Below are positions 2,380 to 35,803 of a stretch of 64,000 nucleotides of DNA, piece by piece. The DNA comes from Terricaulis silvestris (GTDB lineage Bacteria; Pseudomonadota; Alphaproteobacteria; Caulobacterales; Aquidulcibacteraceae), in the NCBI RefSeq assembly GCF_009792355.1, contig NZ_CP047045.1:992001-1056000 (forward strand), given 5' to 3'. The position numbers and the translations under genes were made by a program. Below the pieces are notes generated by a model that worked only from the letters and a program-made list of their open reading frames with translations, made no database searches and was not told the DNA's origin. Within the stretch, counting starts at the first letter, position 1. Every line of letters begins with the position of its first letter.

Positions 2380-2943
2380 ATGATCGCGTCCGTCTTTGTT
2401 GGAACCAGCCTCGACGGGTTCATTGCACGCGCCGATGACTCTTTCGACTTCCTCCCGGAAGGCGGCGGCGAGCCGCACGGGTACGATGAGTTCATGGCCA
2501 GTGTTGGCGCGCTGGTCATCGGGCGGCGGACGTTCGACGTCGTACTCGGCTTTGCCGTCTGGCCCTTCGGCGGAAAGCCGGTCATCGTTCTCACAACGCG
2601 GCCGATGCCGTCCGTGCCTGCCGGCGCCGTGGTCGAACGCATGTCTGGAGAGCCGCGCGAGGTCGTCGCCGCTCTGAGCGCGCGCGGTATCGGCCATATC
2701 TATGTTGATGGAGGCGCCACGGTTCAGAGCTTTCTGCGCGCGGGGTGCATCCACCGCATAATCGTCACTCGCGCCCCGGTGCTGATTGGACAAGGCATCC
2801 CGCTATTTGGACCCTTGGCGAGCGATATCGTTCTGCGCCACATCGGCACGCGCCACTTTCAAAGTGGATTGGTGCAGAGCGAATATCACGTGGTTGGCGC
2901 TTCAGAACCTGGGCGCGACATCGAACCGCTTTGGCTCTCGTAA
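2380..2943 (+). CDS. Dihydrofolate reductase family protein (RibD C-terminal fold)
   Basis: The 187-residue product has the DHFR/RibD fold signature: IASVFVGTSLDGFIARAD at the N-terminus, LVIGRRTFDVVLGF in the middle and HIYVDGGATVQSFLRAGCIH near the end, the NADPH-binding GG region. Such stand-alone YyaP/YwjB-like proteins are NADPH-dependent reductases of mostly unknown substrate. ATG 2380 is preferred over 2359 because a GAGGGAGG site lies at 2361-2368, between the two. A second family member is at 47447-48139. Confidence 0.8.
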   Translation: MIASVFVGTSLDGFIARADDSFDFLPEGGGEPHGYDEFMASVGALVIGRRTFDVVLGFAVWPFGGKPVIVLTTRPMPSVPAGAVVERMSGEPREVVAALSARGIGHIYVDGGATVQSFLRAGCIHRIIVTRAPVLIGQGIPLFGPLASDIVLRHIGTRHFQSGLVQSEYHVVGASEPGRDIEPLWLS

Positions 2944-2947
2944 TCGG

Positions 2948-4162
2948 TTACGCCAGCGCCGGTTCTGGCTTCGCTTCAAGCTTGTGCTGCGTTTCCGGCA
3001 CAAAGCGCATCAGGAACGGATTGATCGCGATCGAAATCATCGCCGCGCCGAGGATGAGATTGTAGGTCTCCGCCGTCATGACGTTGAATTGCCGGCCCAG
3101 CCCCGCCAACACGAACGAGAATTCGCCGATCTGTGCGGTGCCAAACGCGATCAGCAAGCTCGACGCGCGGCCCTGGCCGAGCATCCGCATCGGCACATAC
3201 GCCAGCACGGCTTTGCCGATCACGATGACAGCGACCAGCGCGGCGATCGCCAATGGCTCACGTAGCAATACGCTCGGATCAAGCAGCATTCCAACGGCGA
3301 CGAAGAACAGCACCGCGAACGTGTCTCGGAGCGGCAGCGAATCCTCGGCCACCTTGTGGCTGAACTTGCTCCCGTTGAGGGCAAGCCCGCCCAGGAAGGC
3401 GCCGAGTGCGAAGCTGGCGTCGAACCAGAAATAGGCTGCGCCGGCGACGCCCAACGCCAGCGCTAGGGTGCCAAGCGAGAGCAGCTCGCGCGACTTGGTG
3501 TGCGCGATCTGGACAATCAGCCACGGAAAGAAGCGTCCGCCCACGATCAGCATCAGCGCCACGAAGCCCGCGATCTTGGCGAGCGTGATCCCCAGAGCGA
3601 TTGCGATGCTCAGCGGCGAGACGCTCGCGCCTTGGCCCGACGTCGCCGTGACCAGGGCAGGCAGCAAAACGATTGCCAGAATGATGATGATGTCTTCGAC
3701 CAGCAGCCAAGACACGCTGATCCGGCCTTCCTCCGTCTTCATCAGCCGGCGGTCTTCCAGCACGCGGAGAAACACGACCGTACTGGCGATCGACATGGCG
3801 AGCCCGAGCAGGATCGCCTCGGTCAACGGCATCGCGAACGCCAACCCAACGCCCGCGCCCATCGCGCCAACCAAAACGGTTTGAAGCAACGATCCAGGCA
3901 CCGCGACCCAACGGACAGACCAGATGTCATCCAGTGAGATTTTCAGCCCCACCCCGAACATCAGCAGGATCACGCCGATCTCGGAAAGCTGCAGCGCCAA
4001 TTCGACGTCAGCGGTGAAGCCTGGTGAGAACGGGCCAACGATGAAGCCCGCGAACAAATAGCCAACGATGGGCGAGAACCGCAACCGCTGGGCGACAAAG
4101 CCGAACACGAACGCAAGCACTATCGCGGCCACCAGGGTCGTGATCAGTCCGTGCTGCTCCAT
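2948..4162 (-). CDS. Cation:proton antiporter, Kef/CPA2 type
   Basis: The 404-residue protein has about twelve membrane segments with the CPA2 pattern: RLRFSPIVGYLFAGFIVGP, then ELALQLSEIGVILLMFGVGL, then ALGAFLGGLALNGSKFSHKV. It probably exchanges K+ or Na+ for protons across the inner membrane. It stops soon after the last membrane helix (KLEAKPEPALA), so the cytosolic TrkA-N/RCK domain of full-length KefB/YbaL (about 560 residues) is absent. It is convergent with the DHFR-family gene, 4 bases apart. Confidence 0.85.
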   Translation of the reverse strand: MEQHGLITTLVAAIVLAFVFGFVAQRLRFSPIVGYLFAGFIVGPFSPGFTADVELALQLSEIGVILLMFGVGLKISLDDIWSVRWVAVPGSLLQTVLVGAMGAGVGLAFAMPLTEAILLGLAMSIASTVVFLRVLEDRRLMKTEEGRISVSWLLVEDIIIILAIVLLPALVTATSGQGASVSPLSIAIALGITLAKIAGFVALMLIVGGRFFPWLIVQIAHTKSRELLSLGTLALALGVAGAAYFWFDASFALGAFLGGLALNGSKFSHKVAEDSLPLRDTFAVLFFVAVGMLLDPSVLLREPLAIAALVAVIVIGKAVLAYVPMRMLGQGRASSLLIAFGTAQIGEFSFVLAGLGRQFNVMTAETYNLILGAAMISIAINPFLMRFVPETQHKLEAKPEPALA

Positions 4163-30679: not shown

Positions 30680-30719
30680 TGGAAGCGGGGCTTCTAGCGG
30701 AAGGCCGGGATTACTGCAA
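30680..30719 (-). promoter_or_regulatory. rplY promoter with CCCCGCTTCCA motif
   Basis: On the minus strand, -35 TTGCAG (30714-30719), 17 bases, and -10 TAGAAG (30691-30696) are followed directly by CCCCGCTTCCA (30680-30690). The -35 lies inside the last codons of the upstream hydrolase gene (stop at 30711), so rplY-pth can be expressed independently of it. Confidence 0.65.
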
Positions 30720-31637
30720 GGCGGGCCCCCGCGTCGGATCGGGGTCCGCTGGCTGGGTCGCGGGCGGGGCCGCCTCTTCCCGGCCTTCGGCCTCCGCGAT
30801 GGCCTGCTCCATGGCTTCCCAGAGCGCCGGGACGCAGCAGGCGTTCAGAAAATGGTCCCCGCCGGGGACGGTGATCAGAGTATGGCCGTACTCGGCCGCG
30901 ATGCGCTGATCGGCCTCGAGGGGGACGAAGGTATCGTTGTCCCCGTGCAGGAAGACGATGGGCTGCTGTAAGCCCCGGAGCGCCGGCCAGACTGCGGGCA
31001 GCTGCGGCCGCTGGGTGGTGATCTCGGTAATGGCGTTACGAAGATCGCGCTGCAGCAGGGGCCGGACGATCTGGCCGACGCCGATCATGCGCCGCGCGGT
31101 TGGGCCGCGATCGCCGAAGAAGGCTGACACCAGCACCATCGCATCGACCCGGTCCGGGTAGCGCTGCGCCATCAGAGTCGCGACCGGTGCGCCGAAACTT
31201 TGGCCTACGAGCAGCACGCGCTGGCCGGGCCGCGCTTCCAACATCGGCGCCAGCGCCTCGGCTTGTTTGGCGATATCGCGGACAGCGTTTTGCGGCTCGG
31301 AGGTTCGGAAGCCTGGTCGGTCGGCCACGATCATCTCGCGCGTCGCTGGCGCTGCGGCGATGGTTGGCGCCCAGTATTCGCTCCAGGACGGCGTGCCGGT
31401 GATGATGACGATCTTCCAGCTGGCCTCGGGACGGGCGGCGGTTTGCAGCGCTGAGATGCGCCAATGCTCCGGCACGCCCGCGGTGAAGTCGATCCGCTCC
31501 ATCGTGCCGGCTGGGTAGTCGCCCGAGGTCGGAAACCTATCCGGCCCGTCTTCCGGCGGCGACCCCGCGCACGCGGCGGCGACCAGGCTCAAAGCAAGGA
31601 TGGCGATGTGGGAGAGGAGCCTGCGCATCAGCGCCAT
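30711..31637 (-). CDS. Alpha/beta hydrolase lipoprotein
   Basis: The 308-residue protein has a signal peptide with lipobox (ALSLVAAACAG), a conserved strand before the oxyanion hole (WKIVIITGTPSWSEYWAP), nucleophile elbow LLVGQSFGAPVATLMAQ, acid in FLHGDNDTFVPLE and His in VPGGDHFLNACCVPAL. The triad is complete, so an active periplasmic or outer-membrane serine hydrolase is likely. A Pro-rich tail (APPATQPADPDPTRG) follows. A start at the second Met (31628) is equally possible. Confidence 0.82.
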   Translation of the reverse strand: MALMRRLLSHIAILALSLVAAACAGSPPEDGPDRFPTSGDYPAGTMERIDFTAGVPEHWRISALQTAARPEASWKIVIITGTPSWSEYWAPTIAAAPATREMIVADRPGFRTSEPQNAVRDIAKQAEALAPMLEARPGQRVLLVGQSFGAPVATLMAQRYPDRVDAMVLVSAFFGDRGPTARRMIGVGQIVRPLLQRDLRNAITEITTQRPQLPAVWPALRGLQQPIVFLHGDNDTFVPLEADQRIAAEYGHTLITVPGGDHFLNACCVPALWEAMEQAIAEAEGREEAAPPATQPADPDPTRGPALQ

Positions 31638-31725
31638 GTAGCTATTTCCGCCCGGCGCGTCATCCGCCGGTCGGCGAACGCGCAGCCGCGTGCGACGCCG
31701 CGAGGCGCAGGTTGAGGATTTTTCT

Positions 31726-32089
31726 GCTCCAAGTGGGAGCCGGGGCGCGTGGTTCGCGCTGAGTAGTCTCTAGGGTTTCCGCCTTCGCTCTTGCGAGCTT
31801 CGGCGGACTGCGCGTCACACGCGCCCCGTATCCGATCGTTTTTTCCCGGCCTGGGACGAGGAGTCGCCTTCTGCTCGTTGCTTTCAAGGCGGTGTGAGCG
31901 CCTCTCGGCTTAGCTCCATTCCCAGTTCGCCGGTGCTCGTGGGCAAGGCTTCCGAACCTTGGACTCTTCGGTTTCATTCCCCGAAGACAAACCCCACCGA
32001 CCGTGTCCACACATTCCAAAGTTTCGGAGCTCTTCGAAATCTCCCGTGTGCGGACGGAGACACTGTACGCGCGGTGTCAATTCGGTCGG
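31726..32089 (-). ncRNA. Candidate large structured RNA of unknown family
   Basis: No credible protein is encoded here, yet the minus strand can fold nearly throughout. Helices (plus-strand positions): 31997-32003/32083-32089 (7 bp); 32059-32063/32074-32078; 32005-32012/32046-32055; 31965-31971/31981-31987 (7 bp); 31944-31948/31957-31961; 31920-31925/31851-31856 plus 31914-31917/31860-31863; 31865-31870/31886-31891; 31742-31751/31818-31827 (10 bp); 31755-31759/31810-31814; 31779-31783/31802-31806 with inner 31787-31790/31795-31798; 31726-31730/31736-31740. Two loops are GNRA on the minus strand only (GCAA at 31791-31794, GAGA at 31903-31906), and one hairpin has a symmetric GAA/GAA internal loop. 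Ends are approximate. Hallmarks of RNase P, tmRNA, SRP RNA and group I/II introns were looked for and not found. Confidence 0.55.
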
Positions 32090-32111
32090 ATAGATTCCTG
32101 CTCCGCTTGTG

Positions 32112-32280
32112 CTCACCCGATAGGGGGAGCTGTCATCGCGCGAGCGATGACTGAGGGGGCAGCGCCCTTGTTTACAAGCCTTTGCGCTCTCCCCTCCGTC
32201 GCGCGCGATGCGCGCGACACCTCCCCTAACGGAGGGAGGACGAGGCCAGAGTGTGGGATAGAGGGCGGCTCTATCCTCCC
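32112..32280. repeat. Cluster of REP-like palindromes downstream of kup
   Basis: Three stems lie side by side: 32132-32139/32144-32151 (8 bp, flanked by GGGGGAG and GAGGGGG), 32198-32206/32210-32218 (9 bp, flanked by CCTCCGT and ACGGAGG), and 32256-32263/32269-32276 (8 bp, GGATAGAG arms). The first two share end boxes with the repeat at 1260-1291, in opposite orientations; the third may act as the kup terminator. No gene is seen here. Confidence 0.6.
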
Positions 32281-32296
32281 ATTTTCCGTTTTGGCC

Positions 32297-34216
32297 CTAG
32301 ATGGCCACCTGGTTTCCCAGTTCCACGACGCGCGACGTGGGAATATGGAAGAACTCGGTCGCGTTGGTGGCGTTGCGCGCCAAGAAGATAAACAGCAAAT
32401 CCTGCCGGAGCGGCATGGCGCTCTTCGGCGTCGGCACGAGCGCGCGCCGGCTCAGGAAGAACGACGTTGTCATAATGTCGAACTGCAGCCCGTGATCGCG
32501 CGCGAGCGCCAGTCCACGGCCGACATTCGGCGTTTCCATGAAGCCGAACGTGAGCGTGACGAGATGTACGTCGGGGCGCAGGGTTTCGATCTTGACCCGT
32601 TCAGCCTCGCTCGCCCGTGGCGAGGCGGAAGACTTGATCGTCAGCAGCACGATGTTCTCGTGCAGCACCTGATTGTGCTTGAGATTGTGCATCAGCGCCG
32701 TCGGCGCCGAGTTTGGATCAGCGGTGAGAAACACCGCCGTTCCGCGAACCCGAAGCGGCGGCGATAGAGCGAGCATCTCCATAAGCGCGCCGATGCCGGC
32801 TTCTTGCCGAGTTCGCAACTGAAGCAAGTTTGAACCGCGAACCCAGGTCCACATGATGATTATGAAGACGCCAGCGATAACCAATGGCACGAAACCGCCA
32901 CTGAACAGTTTCAGCATGTTGGCGCCAAGGAACACCGCCTCAAGGAGAATGAACGGCGCCATTAGCGCGATGGCAAACCACAGCGGTCGCTTCAACACCT
33001 TCCAGATCGCGAGTACCGCCAGCAGCGACGACGTGATCATCGCGCCGATCACTGAGACGCCGTAGGCGCCGCCGAGCGCGCTCGACGAACCGAAGACGAA
33101 GGTTAGAAACAGCACGCCCGCCATCAGCATGTAGTTCACCTGCGGCATATAAATCTGACCGTATTGGCGGGCCGAGGTTTGCAAAATCTGCATGCGCGGC
33201 AGCAGTCCAAGTTGGATGGCTTGCTGCGTGAGTGAGTAGGCCCCGGAAATGACCGCTTGGCTCGCAATGATCGTCGCCATTGTCGCCAGAACAACAAGCG
33301 CGGGTCGCCATTCTTCGCTCGGCATCAAGAAGAACGGATTGGACAGCGTCGCAGGATTAGCCAACACCATCGCGCCTTGGCCGAGATAGTTGAGTGCAAG
33401 GCACGGAAACACGAGCCAGATCCAGCCAGCGGCAACCGGCTTGCGTCCGAAATGGCCCATGTCGGCGTAGAGGGCCTCCGCGCCGGTGACGGTCAAAAAC
33501 ACCGAGCCAAGAACGACGAAGCCCAGCAGGCCGTGGTCCATCATGAAGGTCGCCGCGTTGAGGGGATTGAACGCCGCCAGCACACCCCAATCGTCGCTCA
33601 AATGCATCAGGCCGAGCCATGCAAGCGCGCCAAACCAGACTACACATATCGGCCCAAACCAGGCGCCGACGCGGCCGGACCCTGTTCGCTGCACCAGGAA
33701 GAGAACGACAAGGATTGTCAGCGTAATCGGCATAATGAACGGTTCGATCCGTCCGGTGAGTTGGGGAAGGACCGCAAGTCCTTCGACCGCGGACAGGACC
33801 GAGATCGCGGGCGTCAGCATGGCGTCGCCGTAGAAGAGTCCGGCGCCGAGCACGCCCATCAGAAACAAGAAGGGCGTGCGTTTGCCGAGAGCACGCTGGA
33901 CGAGGGCCATCAACGAAAGCGTGCCGCCTTCTCCGCGATTATCGAGGCGCAGGAGGATGAAGACGTACTTCAGCAACACGATTGCGATCAGCGCCCACAG
34001 CATCAGCGAGATCACGCCGATCACGTCCGTGCGCAAAACCCCACCCTGCGTGTGCGCTACGTGAGCGATGGACTCTCTGAAAGCGTAAAGCGGGCTGGTG
34101 CCGATATCGCCGTAGACGACCCCGATCGCAGCGATCGCCAGGGTCCAGAACCCGGCCTTCCGGTGGGTCTCAGCGGAGGGCGGCGCGACGGGCGTGGACG
34201 TGGCAGGCTTATGCAA
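32297..34216 (-). CDS. kup: Kup potassium uptake permease
   Basis: The 639-residue protein matches Kup/Trk-type K+:H+ symporters: GVVYGDIGTSPLYAFRES in helix 1, TPAISVLSAVEGLAVLPQLT, twelve membrane helices and a C-terminal cytoplasmic domain ending RVVELGNQVAI. The start is placed at TTG 34216 because GGAG lies eight bases upstream and the length then matches the family; an ATG at 34312 would overlap the divergent kinase gene. Neighbouring KdpDE-like genes point to K+ or turgor control. Confidence 0.93.
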   Translation of the reverse strand: MHKPATSTPVAPPSAETHRKAGFWTLAIAAIGVVYGDIGTSPLYAFRESIAHVAHTQGGVLRTDVIGVISLMLWALIAIVLLKYVFILLRLDNRGEGGTLSLMALVQRALGKRTPFLFLMGVLGAGLFYGDAMLTPAISVLSAVEGLAVLPQLTGRIEPFIMPITLTILVVLFLVQRTGSGRVGAWFGPICVVWFGALAWLGLMHLSDDWGVLAAFNPLNAATFMMDHGLLGFVVLGSVFLTVTGAEALYADMGHFGRKPVAAGWIWLVFPCLALNYLGQGAMVLANPATLSNPFFLMPSEEWRPALVVLATMATIIASQAVISGAYSLTQQAIQLGLLPRMQILQTSARQYGQIYMPQVNYMLMAGVLFLTFVFGSSSALGGAYGVSVIGAMITSSLLAVLAIWKVLKRPLWFAIALMAPFILLEAVFLGANMLKLFSGGFVPLVIAGVFIIIMWTWVRGSNLLQLRTRQEAGIGALMEMLALSPPLRVRGTAVFLTADPNSAPTALMHNLKHNQVLHENIVLLTIKSSASPRASEAERVKIETLRPDVHLVTLTFGFMETPNVGRGLALARDHGLQFDIMTTSFFLSRRALVPTPKSAMPLRQDLLFIFLARNATNATEFFHIPTSRVVELGNQVAI

Positions 34217-34279
34217 GGGCGGTTCTCCGATGCGTCCGCCTTCGCACGCCTCGGCATAAAGATTCCATGTGGTTGAAGC

Positions 34280-35803
34280 GTGCCTCCGGAACGGACATCT
34301 ATAGGCCGACATTCCGTGACGTTTCCGCCGTCCCCGCCCTCGCGTTTCAGGCCGTTCCTTGGAGCGGCGCTGGTGACATGCGTGTTGATCGCGCTTGCAG
34401 CGTTGCTTGCACGAGCCGCCGAGGCTTGGCTCGATCCGCAGAGCCTCGCGCTCTTTTTTGTGGTGCCTATCGTTGTCGCGGCGATCCGCTACGGCCTTTG
34501 GGCGTCGCTTGGAGCGGCTCTGCTCAGCGCCCTGGCGATCAACTATCTCTATGTCGAACCGCGCTACACATTCGTAGTTGCCCGTGCGCAGGATGCCGCA
34601 GCGCTTTTGTTGTTTTCGCTGGTCGGCGCGCTGGTCAGCGCCATCGCCGCTCGTGCGCGCGCGGCTGCGCTCGACGCAGAGCGGCGCGCAAGGGAAGCGC
34701 TCTTGCTGCAGAGCCTCGCCACGCGTTTGGCCGCGAGCGGTGCGGAGGACGAAATAGCCGACGCCGTCGTCGATAGTCTGTCCGCCTTAAGCGGGCGGGC
34801 GGCGCTGTTGGTGGATGCGAGCGATCGCCATTGGGGCAGTGGCTTTGGCGATGCCGCCCGGGCCGCCGCGCGTTGGTCGATGAGCACCAAGCAGCCCTTC
34901 ACGCCCTCCCTCGATGCGCCCAGCCCTTCTTCATGGGCGTTTTGGCCCGTGGTGTTTGCTGGCCGCAGCGAAATGGCCCTTGGCGTCAACGCCGCCGAAC
35001 CTCTGGCGCCGGAGATTCGACGGGCCGCCGAGCAGATCACCGCCCAAGCCGGTGTTGCGATGGAGCGCGCACGCGTGGCCCGGACCGCGGAAGCTGCGCG
35101 CCTCGAAGTCGAACGCGAACGATTGAAGACCGAACTTCTAGCCGGCGTCTCACACGATCTGCGCACGCCGTTGTCGATGATTGTTTTCACGTTGCAGAGC
35201 CTGCAGCGTTTCGCCGCCGATCACCCGCCTGAGACCCGCGACGAACTTCTCGCCTTGGCAGAGGCCGAGGCGCGCCGGCTGGCGGAAATGGTCGATACCT
35301 TGCTCGACGCGTCGCGCATTGGCGTTGCTGCCGCACCCGTAAGGATCGAAACAATCGCGCCCAGAGATCTGATCGCCCGACTGCGGGCAGAGTATGCGCC
35401 CTCGGCGAATATCGTTGACGCGCAGGTGGCGGAGAATCTGCCTCTGATCTCAGCCGACCTGGAACTCGCGGTGCGCGCGCTGGCGAACGTCGTGTCAAAC
35501 GCACTGCGTCATGGCGGCGCGCCGGTTCGGATCGTGGCCTCACGGCGCGGCGGAGAAGTGGTGATCGAGATCAGTGATACCGGGCCAGGCCTTGGCGATG
35601 ATCCGGCGCGACTGTTCGAGCGTTTCGTGCGCGGCGCCCCTGATGATGGCCGCGCACCCGGCCTCGGTCTTGGCCTCACCATGGCGCGCAGATTTCTCGA
35701 AGCCCAAGGCGCCCGCATTGTCGCCGCCAACCGGCCGGAAGGTGGCGCGGTGTTCACCATCACGTTCGCGGCCGCCGTCAAAGAGGTCGTTTATGTTGGC
35801 TGA
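34280..35803 (+). CDS. KdpD-like sensor histidine kinase lacking the N-terminal KdpD/Usp domains
   Basis: The 507-residue protein has a DUF4118-type block of membrane helices (residues about 28-120, ending NYLYVEPRYTFVVARAQD), a GAF-like region, HisKA with His292 (ELLAGVSHDLRTPLSMIVFT) and HATPase motifs NVVSNALRHGG, DTGPGLG and GLGLGLTMARR. The DUF4118 pattern is specific to KdpD. The roughly 400-residue cytoplasmic N-terminal domain of full KdpD is missing. GTG 34280 or GTG 34316 may start it. It overlaps the regulator gene by 11 bases and is divergent from kup. Confidence 0.85.
   Translation: MPPERTSIGRHSVTFPPSPPSRFRPFLGAALVTCVLIALAALLARAAEAWLDPQSLALFFVVPIVVAAIRYGLWASLGAALLSALAINYLYVEPRYTFVVARAQDAAALLLFSLVGALVSAIAARARAAALDAERRAREALLLQSLATRLAASGAEDEIADAVVDSLSALSGRAALLVDASDRHWGSGFGDAARAAARWSMSTKQPFTPSLDAPSPSSWAFWPVVFAGRSEMALGVNAAEPLAPEIRRAAEQITAQAGVAMERARVARTAEAARLEVERERLKTELLAGVSHDLRTPLSMIVFTLQSLQRFAADHPPETRDELLALAEAEARRLAEMVDTLLDASRIGVAAAPVRIETIAPRDLIARLRAEYAPSANIVDAQVAENLPLISADLELAVRALANVVSNALRHGGAPVRIVASRRGGEVVIEISDTGPGLGDDPARLFERFVRGAPDDGRAPGLGLGLTMARRFLEAQGARIVAANRPEGGAVFTITFAAAVKEVVYVG

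Follow-up and report, generated by a model that had tools for sequence, protein, structure and literature searches.

A dispersed family of structured RNAs in Caulobacterales whose letter-switching palindromic loop suggests self-association

Two minus-strand genes of Terricaulis silvestris, a kup-type potassium-transporter gene (32297-34312, Pfam K_trans) and an alpha/beta-hydrolase gene (30711-31637), flank positions 31726-32089 of the window, the whole stretch of 64,000 nucleotides that was analysed, and the question arises what this interval specifies. The original prediction had placed it between kup and a hydrolase gene, as the K_trans match and the gene coordinates bear out, and had proposed that its minus strand folds into a large multi-helix RNA of unrecognised type. 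Within 31640-32120, the minus strand has a more stable fold than shuffled sequences (z -3.9, 0 of 100 shuffles as good), while the plus strand shows a weaker folding excess (z -2.5, 1 of 100 shuffles). Homologues with both-side changes in the helices were found, no Rfam family matched, and the proposal of a large RNA of unrecognised type is upheld: the RNA is a real conserved fold and belongs to a multi-copy family without a match in Rfam 15.

A search of the whole window against Rfam 15 at the gathering score gave no match for the RNA region, and a search of 31600-32320 with E values up to 10 returned only chance-level matches to microRNA, flpD and cow-rumen models. Twenty further loci, searched with E up to 1, matched microRNA models only. 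The Rfam models of group I and group II introns, RNase P, tmRNA, SRP and 6S RNA did not match the RNA, nor did any known catalytic RNA family, and ARAGORN found neither a tRNA nor a tmRNA in the window. Known RNA families were rejected on the strength of these Rfam 15 and ARAGORN results. The covariance models of OLE, ROOL and GOLLD, all three of which presumably have Rfam models, were likewise absent from the matches in the Rfam 15 scans. The original prediction had named an Rfam search and a search for homologues with compensatory base changes as checks; the former returned no known housekeeping RNA, and the latter found homologues and, by an R-scape-like script, compensatory changes. No paper on the RNA family was found in the open-access literature as judged by title and the start of the abstract; such absence is no proof, and the novelty of the family rests on the Rfam 15 and open-access literature searches. 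Another GC-rich inverted repeat (32133-32212), in the interval between the RNA and the kup-type gene, is the source of the chance-level microRNA matches.

The family is dispersed within genomes. Searched by blastn with 491 bases, the organism's own genome yielded 19 matches, fragments among them, and covariance models built for the 3' domain (R1) and for the 5' domain (R2) delimit about 13 distinct loci there (11 by R1 above 75 bits and two more by R2). Within the genus, R1 matched 27 of 30 genomes, including all 20 of good quality; genomes with any match had between 1 and 24 of them. Some weak matches represent the same place on the opposite strand, since the 3' stem is nearly palindromic. 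Across the order, matches were obtained in 34 of 398 sampled genomes, from three of 59 genera and two families; in one of the other genera, 6 of 15 genomes matched. A sample of 385 genomes of the class, searched with stricter filters under which distant relatives may be missed, yielded the own genome only. When 84,980 species genomes were scanned for an exact motif, 22 stretches came up, and the titles of all of them name alphaproteobacterial MAGs (Alphaproteobacteria, Hyphomonadaceae, Caulobacteraceae or Caulobacterales). The window copy had no blastn match in phage and plasmid collections, an exact motif was found in no viral contig, and none of five viral stretches with a second motif was confirmed by R1; phage or plasmid cargo was rejected on these grounds.

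RNAalifold applied to 26 copies gave 80 pairs, 42 of which show at least one both-side change. In an alignment of 40 copies (A6), the consensus together with the loop palindrome described below comprises 107 pairs, 64 with both-side changes, and 91.8% of the cells are paired. In each of five measures the real alignment exceeded all 500 shuffles, and slid versions of the structure were 37-42% paired. No structure was imposed when the copies were aligned, but the consensus was itself drawn from A6, which favours it over its slid versions. For A6, 41 of the 75 R2 matches were chosen and 40 copies entered the final alignment. Their ends were set by pattern in 38 cases and by hand in three (L194, L249, L291), L054 was left out, and five ends were corrected. 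The 34 R2 matches outside A6 mostly have a lower score or a different or longer middle, although L043, L044, L174 and others outscore the weakest one kept, and type II copies, which carry a GCUAGC loop, are poorly covered by R2 and missing from A6. Covariation was compared with a phylogenetic null by our own R-scape-like script (FastTree tree, Fitch substitutions re-placed, G-test with APC, 60 nulls). Six pairs of A6 columns passed the threshold of E<=0.1, each canonical to at least 97%: 73-217, 75-215, 167-183, 193-210 and 33-34 (E 0) and 164-186 (E 0.07).

From 5' to 3', the RNA consists of helix P1, a first hairpin, a long-range helix, a helix with two hairpins, a variable centre and a 3' domain with a 12-bp stem, all on the minus strand. 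P1 forms the 5' end (32048-32055 with 32005-32012), with both-side changes in six of eight pairs and 88% of cells paired, and is followed by the first hairpin (32035-32046 with 32016-32026; 89% of cells paired, both-side changes in two of ten pairs). The long-range helix (31998-32003 with 31833-31838) is paired in 98.8% of cells, shows both-side changes in three of six pairs and is complete in 23 of 26 copies. A 7-bp outer stem had been proposed instead for the same strand (31997-32003 with 32083-32089); only 10 of 26 copies have all of its pairs, both-side change is limited to a single cell, and it was dropped in favour of the pairing with 31833-31838. In the helix 31993-31997 with 31938-31942, two pairs are significant against the phylogenetic null, as is one pair in the hairpin 31956-31961 with 31943-31948. 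The second 7-bp stem of the original prediction, 31981-31987 with 31965-31971, is a conserved hairpin with both-side changes (one pair at E 0, one at E 0.07), and its loop reads GGAGUGAAA in most aligned copies and GGAAUGAAA in the window copy.

The variable central region is closed by the helix 31929-31933 with 31846-31850 (95.5% of cells paired, a both-side change in one of five pairs). In the 3' domain, the terminal 12-bp helix (31817-31828 with 31741-31752) and an inner helix (31810-31814 with 31755-31759) belong to the consensus of 40 copies, and the perfect 10-bp stem noted earlier (31742-31751 with 31818-31827) is a segment of the former. The alignment of 26 copies also shows a conserved strand, AGAGACUACUCA, inside this domain (31760..31771). 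Of the two GNRA loops that had been reported, GCAA is present (GCUC-GCAA-GAGC, 31787-31798), and a GNRA loop stands at the matching columns in 23 of 40 copies (GAGA 17, GCGA 5, GCAA 1), the window's own row being out of register at these columns. The other, a GCC-GAGA-GGC hairpin, was placed by eye in the variable part, as was a reported GAA/GAA internal loop, which lies within the variable part of the window copy. Copies from another bacterial family of the order (L205, L208, L210, L211) have recognisable parts in the same order, judged partly by eye, with larger inserts. In the middle of two RNAs (L174, L175), tandem short hairpin units with a GTAGCGATGTTTCGCG core are inserted in one loop; single units occur elsewhere.

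The extent of the RNA was determined from its surroundings. Homologous copies, the consensus fold and covariation point to a predicted noncoding RNA of about 330 nt (31726..32056, minus strand), which probably runs from about 32056 to about 31726, since 32083-32089 falls in a promoter-like stretch; its start is inferred from a -10-like box and its 3' end from where the homology of recent copies stops. Copies across the family measure roughly 330-480 nt. The -10-like box reads TACAGT in the window (32062..32067, minus strand), and 30 of 40 copies have a hexamer with at least four of six matches to TATAAT, placed at -7 or -8 relative to the first column of the alignment. In 27 of 40 copies this offset carries TANNNT, whereas control offsets reach 3 of 40 at most (mean 0.4), and the box reads TATAAT (L205) and TATAGT (L210) in copies from another bacterial family. 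A conserved TATCCGAC (32085..32092, minus strand) takes the -35 position, separated from the -10-like box by 17 nt, and is not TTGACA-like; an ATCCNNC-like motif, a looser form of a TATCC(G/C/T)AC-like motif, occupies this place in 33 of 40 copies. A plain scan of the region detected no sigma-70 consensus promoter. The arrangement suggests that each RNA copy has its own promoter.

At the other end, a terminal hairpin, GCUCC-CACUU-GGAGC (31726..31740, minus strand), is not followed by a U-run, and a simple terminator scan of the region detected no U-rich or terminator-like site. The homology border of recent copies lies at or near this hairpin in all five copy pairs inspected. With regard to the strand, G-U outnumbers A-C by 152 to 52 cells on the minus-type strand, counted over 92 pairs that come from folding both strands and are at least 75% Watson-Crick. 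Because G-U exceeds A-C and the -10-like box lies just upstream, the minus strand is the RNA strand. The earlier preference for an RNA read on this strand over a DNA palindrome is supported by this asymmetry, by the fixed place of the -10-like box on one side and by the long-range covarying helices.

The apical loop of the first hairpin carries a palindrome. Immediately 5' of a conserved CGA it holds six bases that read GAGCUC in the window copy (32027..32032, minus strand), a proposed symmetric kissing loop. Hexamers were counted in 72 of the 75 R2 rows, two rows judged misplaced and one identical row having been dropped, within a fixed distance range and with CCGG accepted beside CCGA. They were readable in 65 rows, and seven of the 72 had none at the expected place. 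Strict palindromes make up 61 of the 65 (GACGUC 26, GAGCUC 22, GCUAGC 7, GUGCAC 3, GCAUGC 2, GUCGAC 1), and 63 are self-complementary if wobble pairs are allowed (GAUGUC and GGGCUC, one each); UGCUAC and AUCGAC are not self-complementary. Six of the ten distinct hexamers are strict palindromes. In a first reading of the loops, an earlier CCGA in L054 gives a non-palindrome.

Within A6, the two central bases of the hexamer are CG in 20, GC in 19 and UG in one of the 40 copies, without a mismatch, and these adjacent bases are the columns 33-34 that covary above the phylogenetic null. Shifting the register by one to five bases left 0 of 40 strict palindromes, and at -6 there were 19 of 40, from a largely fixed TTCGAA. 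Both-side changes at hexamer positions 2 and 5 are few in the 40-copy set (two cells), and the wider set of copies adds GCUAGC, GCAUGC and GUCGAC. On the tree, parsimony counts 11 switches at the centre dinucleotide, where 200 shuffles gave a mean of 15.0 and a minimum of 10. Switches of the loop dinucleotide are frequent, and some could stem from recombination between copies. No second exact copy of the hexamer was found in any of the 40 RNAs. Since adjacent bases cannot pair within one molecule and a second copy of the hexamer is absent, pairing between two molecules is the simplest reading, and because the letters change yet self-complementarity stays, self-association of the RNA through a symmetric kissing loop is strongly suggested. 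Among the 12 loci read in the window's genome, three loop sub-families are found (GAGCUC 4, GACGUC 5, GCUAGC 3). It is conceivable, though we consider it doubtful, that several sub-families in one cell, each palindrome pairing only with itself, constitute a self-sorting code supplied by dispersed and possibly mobile RNA genes.

We also analyzed the genomic context of the copies. A Pfam scan of 28 neighbour proteins of part of the copies revealed unrelated proteins (MazG, FtsK, ammonium transporter, carboxyl transferase, sigma-70, ribosomal S2, BipA, methyltransferase, enoyl-CoA hydratase, NDK and others; four of the 28 had no Pfam match), and transposase, integrase and reverse-transcriptase domains were not among them. 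Regulation in cis is unlikely because the genes beside the copies are unrelated. Several RNA loci are common to more than one species, and beside mazG a copy is kept in four. The R1 parts at this locus are 78-91% identical to each other, compared with 52-67% to the best paralogue among the loci compared (none for G007). Relative to G011, the RNAs of G001, G007 and G020 are 96%, 94% and 92% identical, the mazG coding sequences 89%, 85% and 86%, and the spacers 41%, 53% and 51%. That the RNA evolves more slowly than the genes around it is evident at the mazG locus only; in one sister pair the RNA is 96.7% identical, the adjacent gene with its flank 96.0% and the spacer 66.9%. A downstream coding-sequence value of 0.44 between G011 and G020 was taken to reflect different genes, as the gene was not recovered there.

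Outside the mazG locus, orthologous loci often have RNAs that are less alike than paralogues. The four species that keep an RNA beside mazG have a type II copy there, and on contig 8 of a further genome, G025 (L310:387-1211 and 2432-3029), about 1.2 kb separates mazG (88% identical) from a type I copy, a possible replacement of the RNA. As orthologues are often less alike and a copy of a different sub-family lies near the G025 mazG, RNA copies are subject to gain, loss or conversion. In G025, two copies share 99.3% identity across 598 bp and have unrelated flanks. The gene region beside one G001/G011 copy has matches in seven other genomes that stop there, with no adjacent RNA match, a comparison to which contig ends may contribute. 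The G001/G011 copies had been considered recent duplicates with unrelated flanks, which was rejected when they were found to be orthologous. In G241 and G372, several copies lie within about 160 bases of contig ends.

Other repeats were seen near the RNAs. A GGATAGA...TCTATCC palindrome follows the kup-type gene in the window (32256-32276), and similar ones precede several RNA copies, which suggests a separate intergenic repeat of the genus. An inverted repeat of about 100-130 bp (GCAGGTTGGAGCGCG...CGCGCTCCAACCTGC) stands immediately ahead of an RNA copy at L038:3718-3850 and also upstream of the RNA in L037, L039, L040, L041 and others, though not at the window copy; in G025 it is also found as a free-standing 134-bp repeat.

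Taken as a whole, the data are probably best explained by 31726-32056 (minus strand) being a member of a dispersed, self-associating, trans-acting noncoding RNA family. This explanation builds on the observed homology, conserved fold, strand, multi-copy dispersal and strong conservation at one syntenic locus. Dispersed RNA genes, each behind promoter-like sequence, would specify the structured RNA, whose copies would associate via the symmetric kissing loop; the likely product is a homodimer, or else a larger RNA assembly of the kind described for OLE or GOLLD. This homo-oligomer would be the functional unit and may work in trans as an RNA or RNA-protein scaffold, not as the leader of an adjoining gene. 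The main rival, which we regard as rather unlikely, is a selfish non-autonomous mobile element whose RNA structure serves its own spread by an enzyme supplied in trans (a transposase, reverse transcriptase or recombinase), with no function for the host. The many dispersed copies are in keeping with such an element, some of the 1 to 24 matches per genome being double-strand duplicates, and so are the near-identical G025 pair with its unrelated flanks, the end of homology on the 3' side, close to or at the terminal hairpin in the five pairs examined, the copies at contig ends in G241 and G372, as expected of near-identical repeats, and the locus with an RNA in two sister species and no adjacent RNA in seven other genomes. 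Against it stand the absence of transposase, integrase or reverse-transcriptase domains from the 28 neighbour proteins (four without a Pfam match), retention at the same locus in four species with an RNA that changes more slowly than the genes there, and a -10-like box that stays near TATAAT. Both can be true, as a selfish element is compatible with a trans-acting, self-associating RNA.

The remaining alternatives carry far less weight. A DNA-level repeat or palindrome cluster of the REP/BIME or MITE type, non-functional as RNA, is disfavoured and very improbable: adjoining inverted repeats (GGTTGGAGCGCG type) and GGATAGA/TCTATCC palindromes do occur beside several copies, but the strand asymmetry of G-U over A-C, the fixed side of the -10-like box and the long-range covarying helices speak for an RNA. 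That the RNA is a cis-regulatory leader or riboswitch of the downstream hydrolase gene, upstream of which it lies on the same strand in the window and likewise in G001, is largely refuted. According to a sequence profile, it is directly upstream in only 2 of 21 strong hydrolase orthologues, on account of which this candidate was rejected; G002 has a further, partial match only, about 0.9 kb upstream. Convergent genes follow some other copies, neighbours are unrelated, and in the part of the copies compared no conserved downstream gene in the same orientation, as for a riboswitch, was found. A divergent housekeeping RNA or intron (RNase P, tmRNA, SRP, 6S, group I or II) would fit the size and the GNRA loops, yet it is hardly credible given the chance level of all Rfam matches (E<=10 for the window copy, E<=1 for 20 loci) and a copy number that varies among genomes.

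The dispersed, probably self-associating RNA is of interest for several reasons. Large self-assembling bacterial RNAs are few and their roles mostly open, and the family adds a candidate without an Rfam 15 match, present in many copies per genome within one bacterial order. Its natural loop variants provide ready matched and mismatched kissing loops, with which RNA self-association in cells is directly testable. The findings also suggest that a large structured RNA may disperse like a repeat family yet stay strongly conserved at one locus.

Among known large RNAs, OLE belongs to extremophilic Firmicutes, and GOLLD and ROOL are larger than the present RNAs. In contrast to OLE, the palindrome is here a hexanucleotide near the 5' end, the RNA has many copies per genome, its hosts are Caulobacterales and no Rfam model matches; it differs from GOLLD and ROOL in having no Rfam match and, for the window copy, no phage or plasmid blastn match. 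As the loop signature is alike but no model matched in the Rfam scans, we do not file the family as a member of OLE or GOLLD. Dispersed structures of another kind are the mobile/repeat sequence candidates (MRSC) of a GC-IGR survey, described there as often lying beside transposase-type genes, with a single long stem as the example (PMC11109978). The present family resembles them in having several copies per genome, including recent copies with unrelated flanks, but it has a complex fold and promoter-like sequence, and the 28 neighbour proteins scanned for part of the copies show no association with mobility genes such as transposases. The smtA motif or Soda Lake RNA (HRC-65-1) of the same survey is similar in its size of over 350 nt, its restriction to a genus and its covariation, and is set apart by its description as occurring only in Thioalkalivibrio, upstream of smtA (PMC11109978). 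A close likeness is that to OLE, described as a homodimer with a symmetric kissing loop whose palindromic tetranucleotide switches from GGCC to GAUC or AGCU, since both are large structured bacterial RNAs with a letter-switching palindromic symmetric loop (PMC12286853). GOLLD and ROOL, described in the same source as nanocages, are likewise large ornate RNAs with intermolecular loops (PMC12286853). The covariance of immediately adjacent loop bases is the argument put forward there for symmetric kissing loops in OLE and GOLLD (PMC12286853). Palindromic covariation of a symmetric loop that includes adjacent bases, as in such homo-oligomeric large RNAs, is found in the present family, and the switches of an internal GC/CG dinucleotide in GOLLD L21a (PMC12286853) are a signature of the kind seen in A6 columns 33-34.
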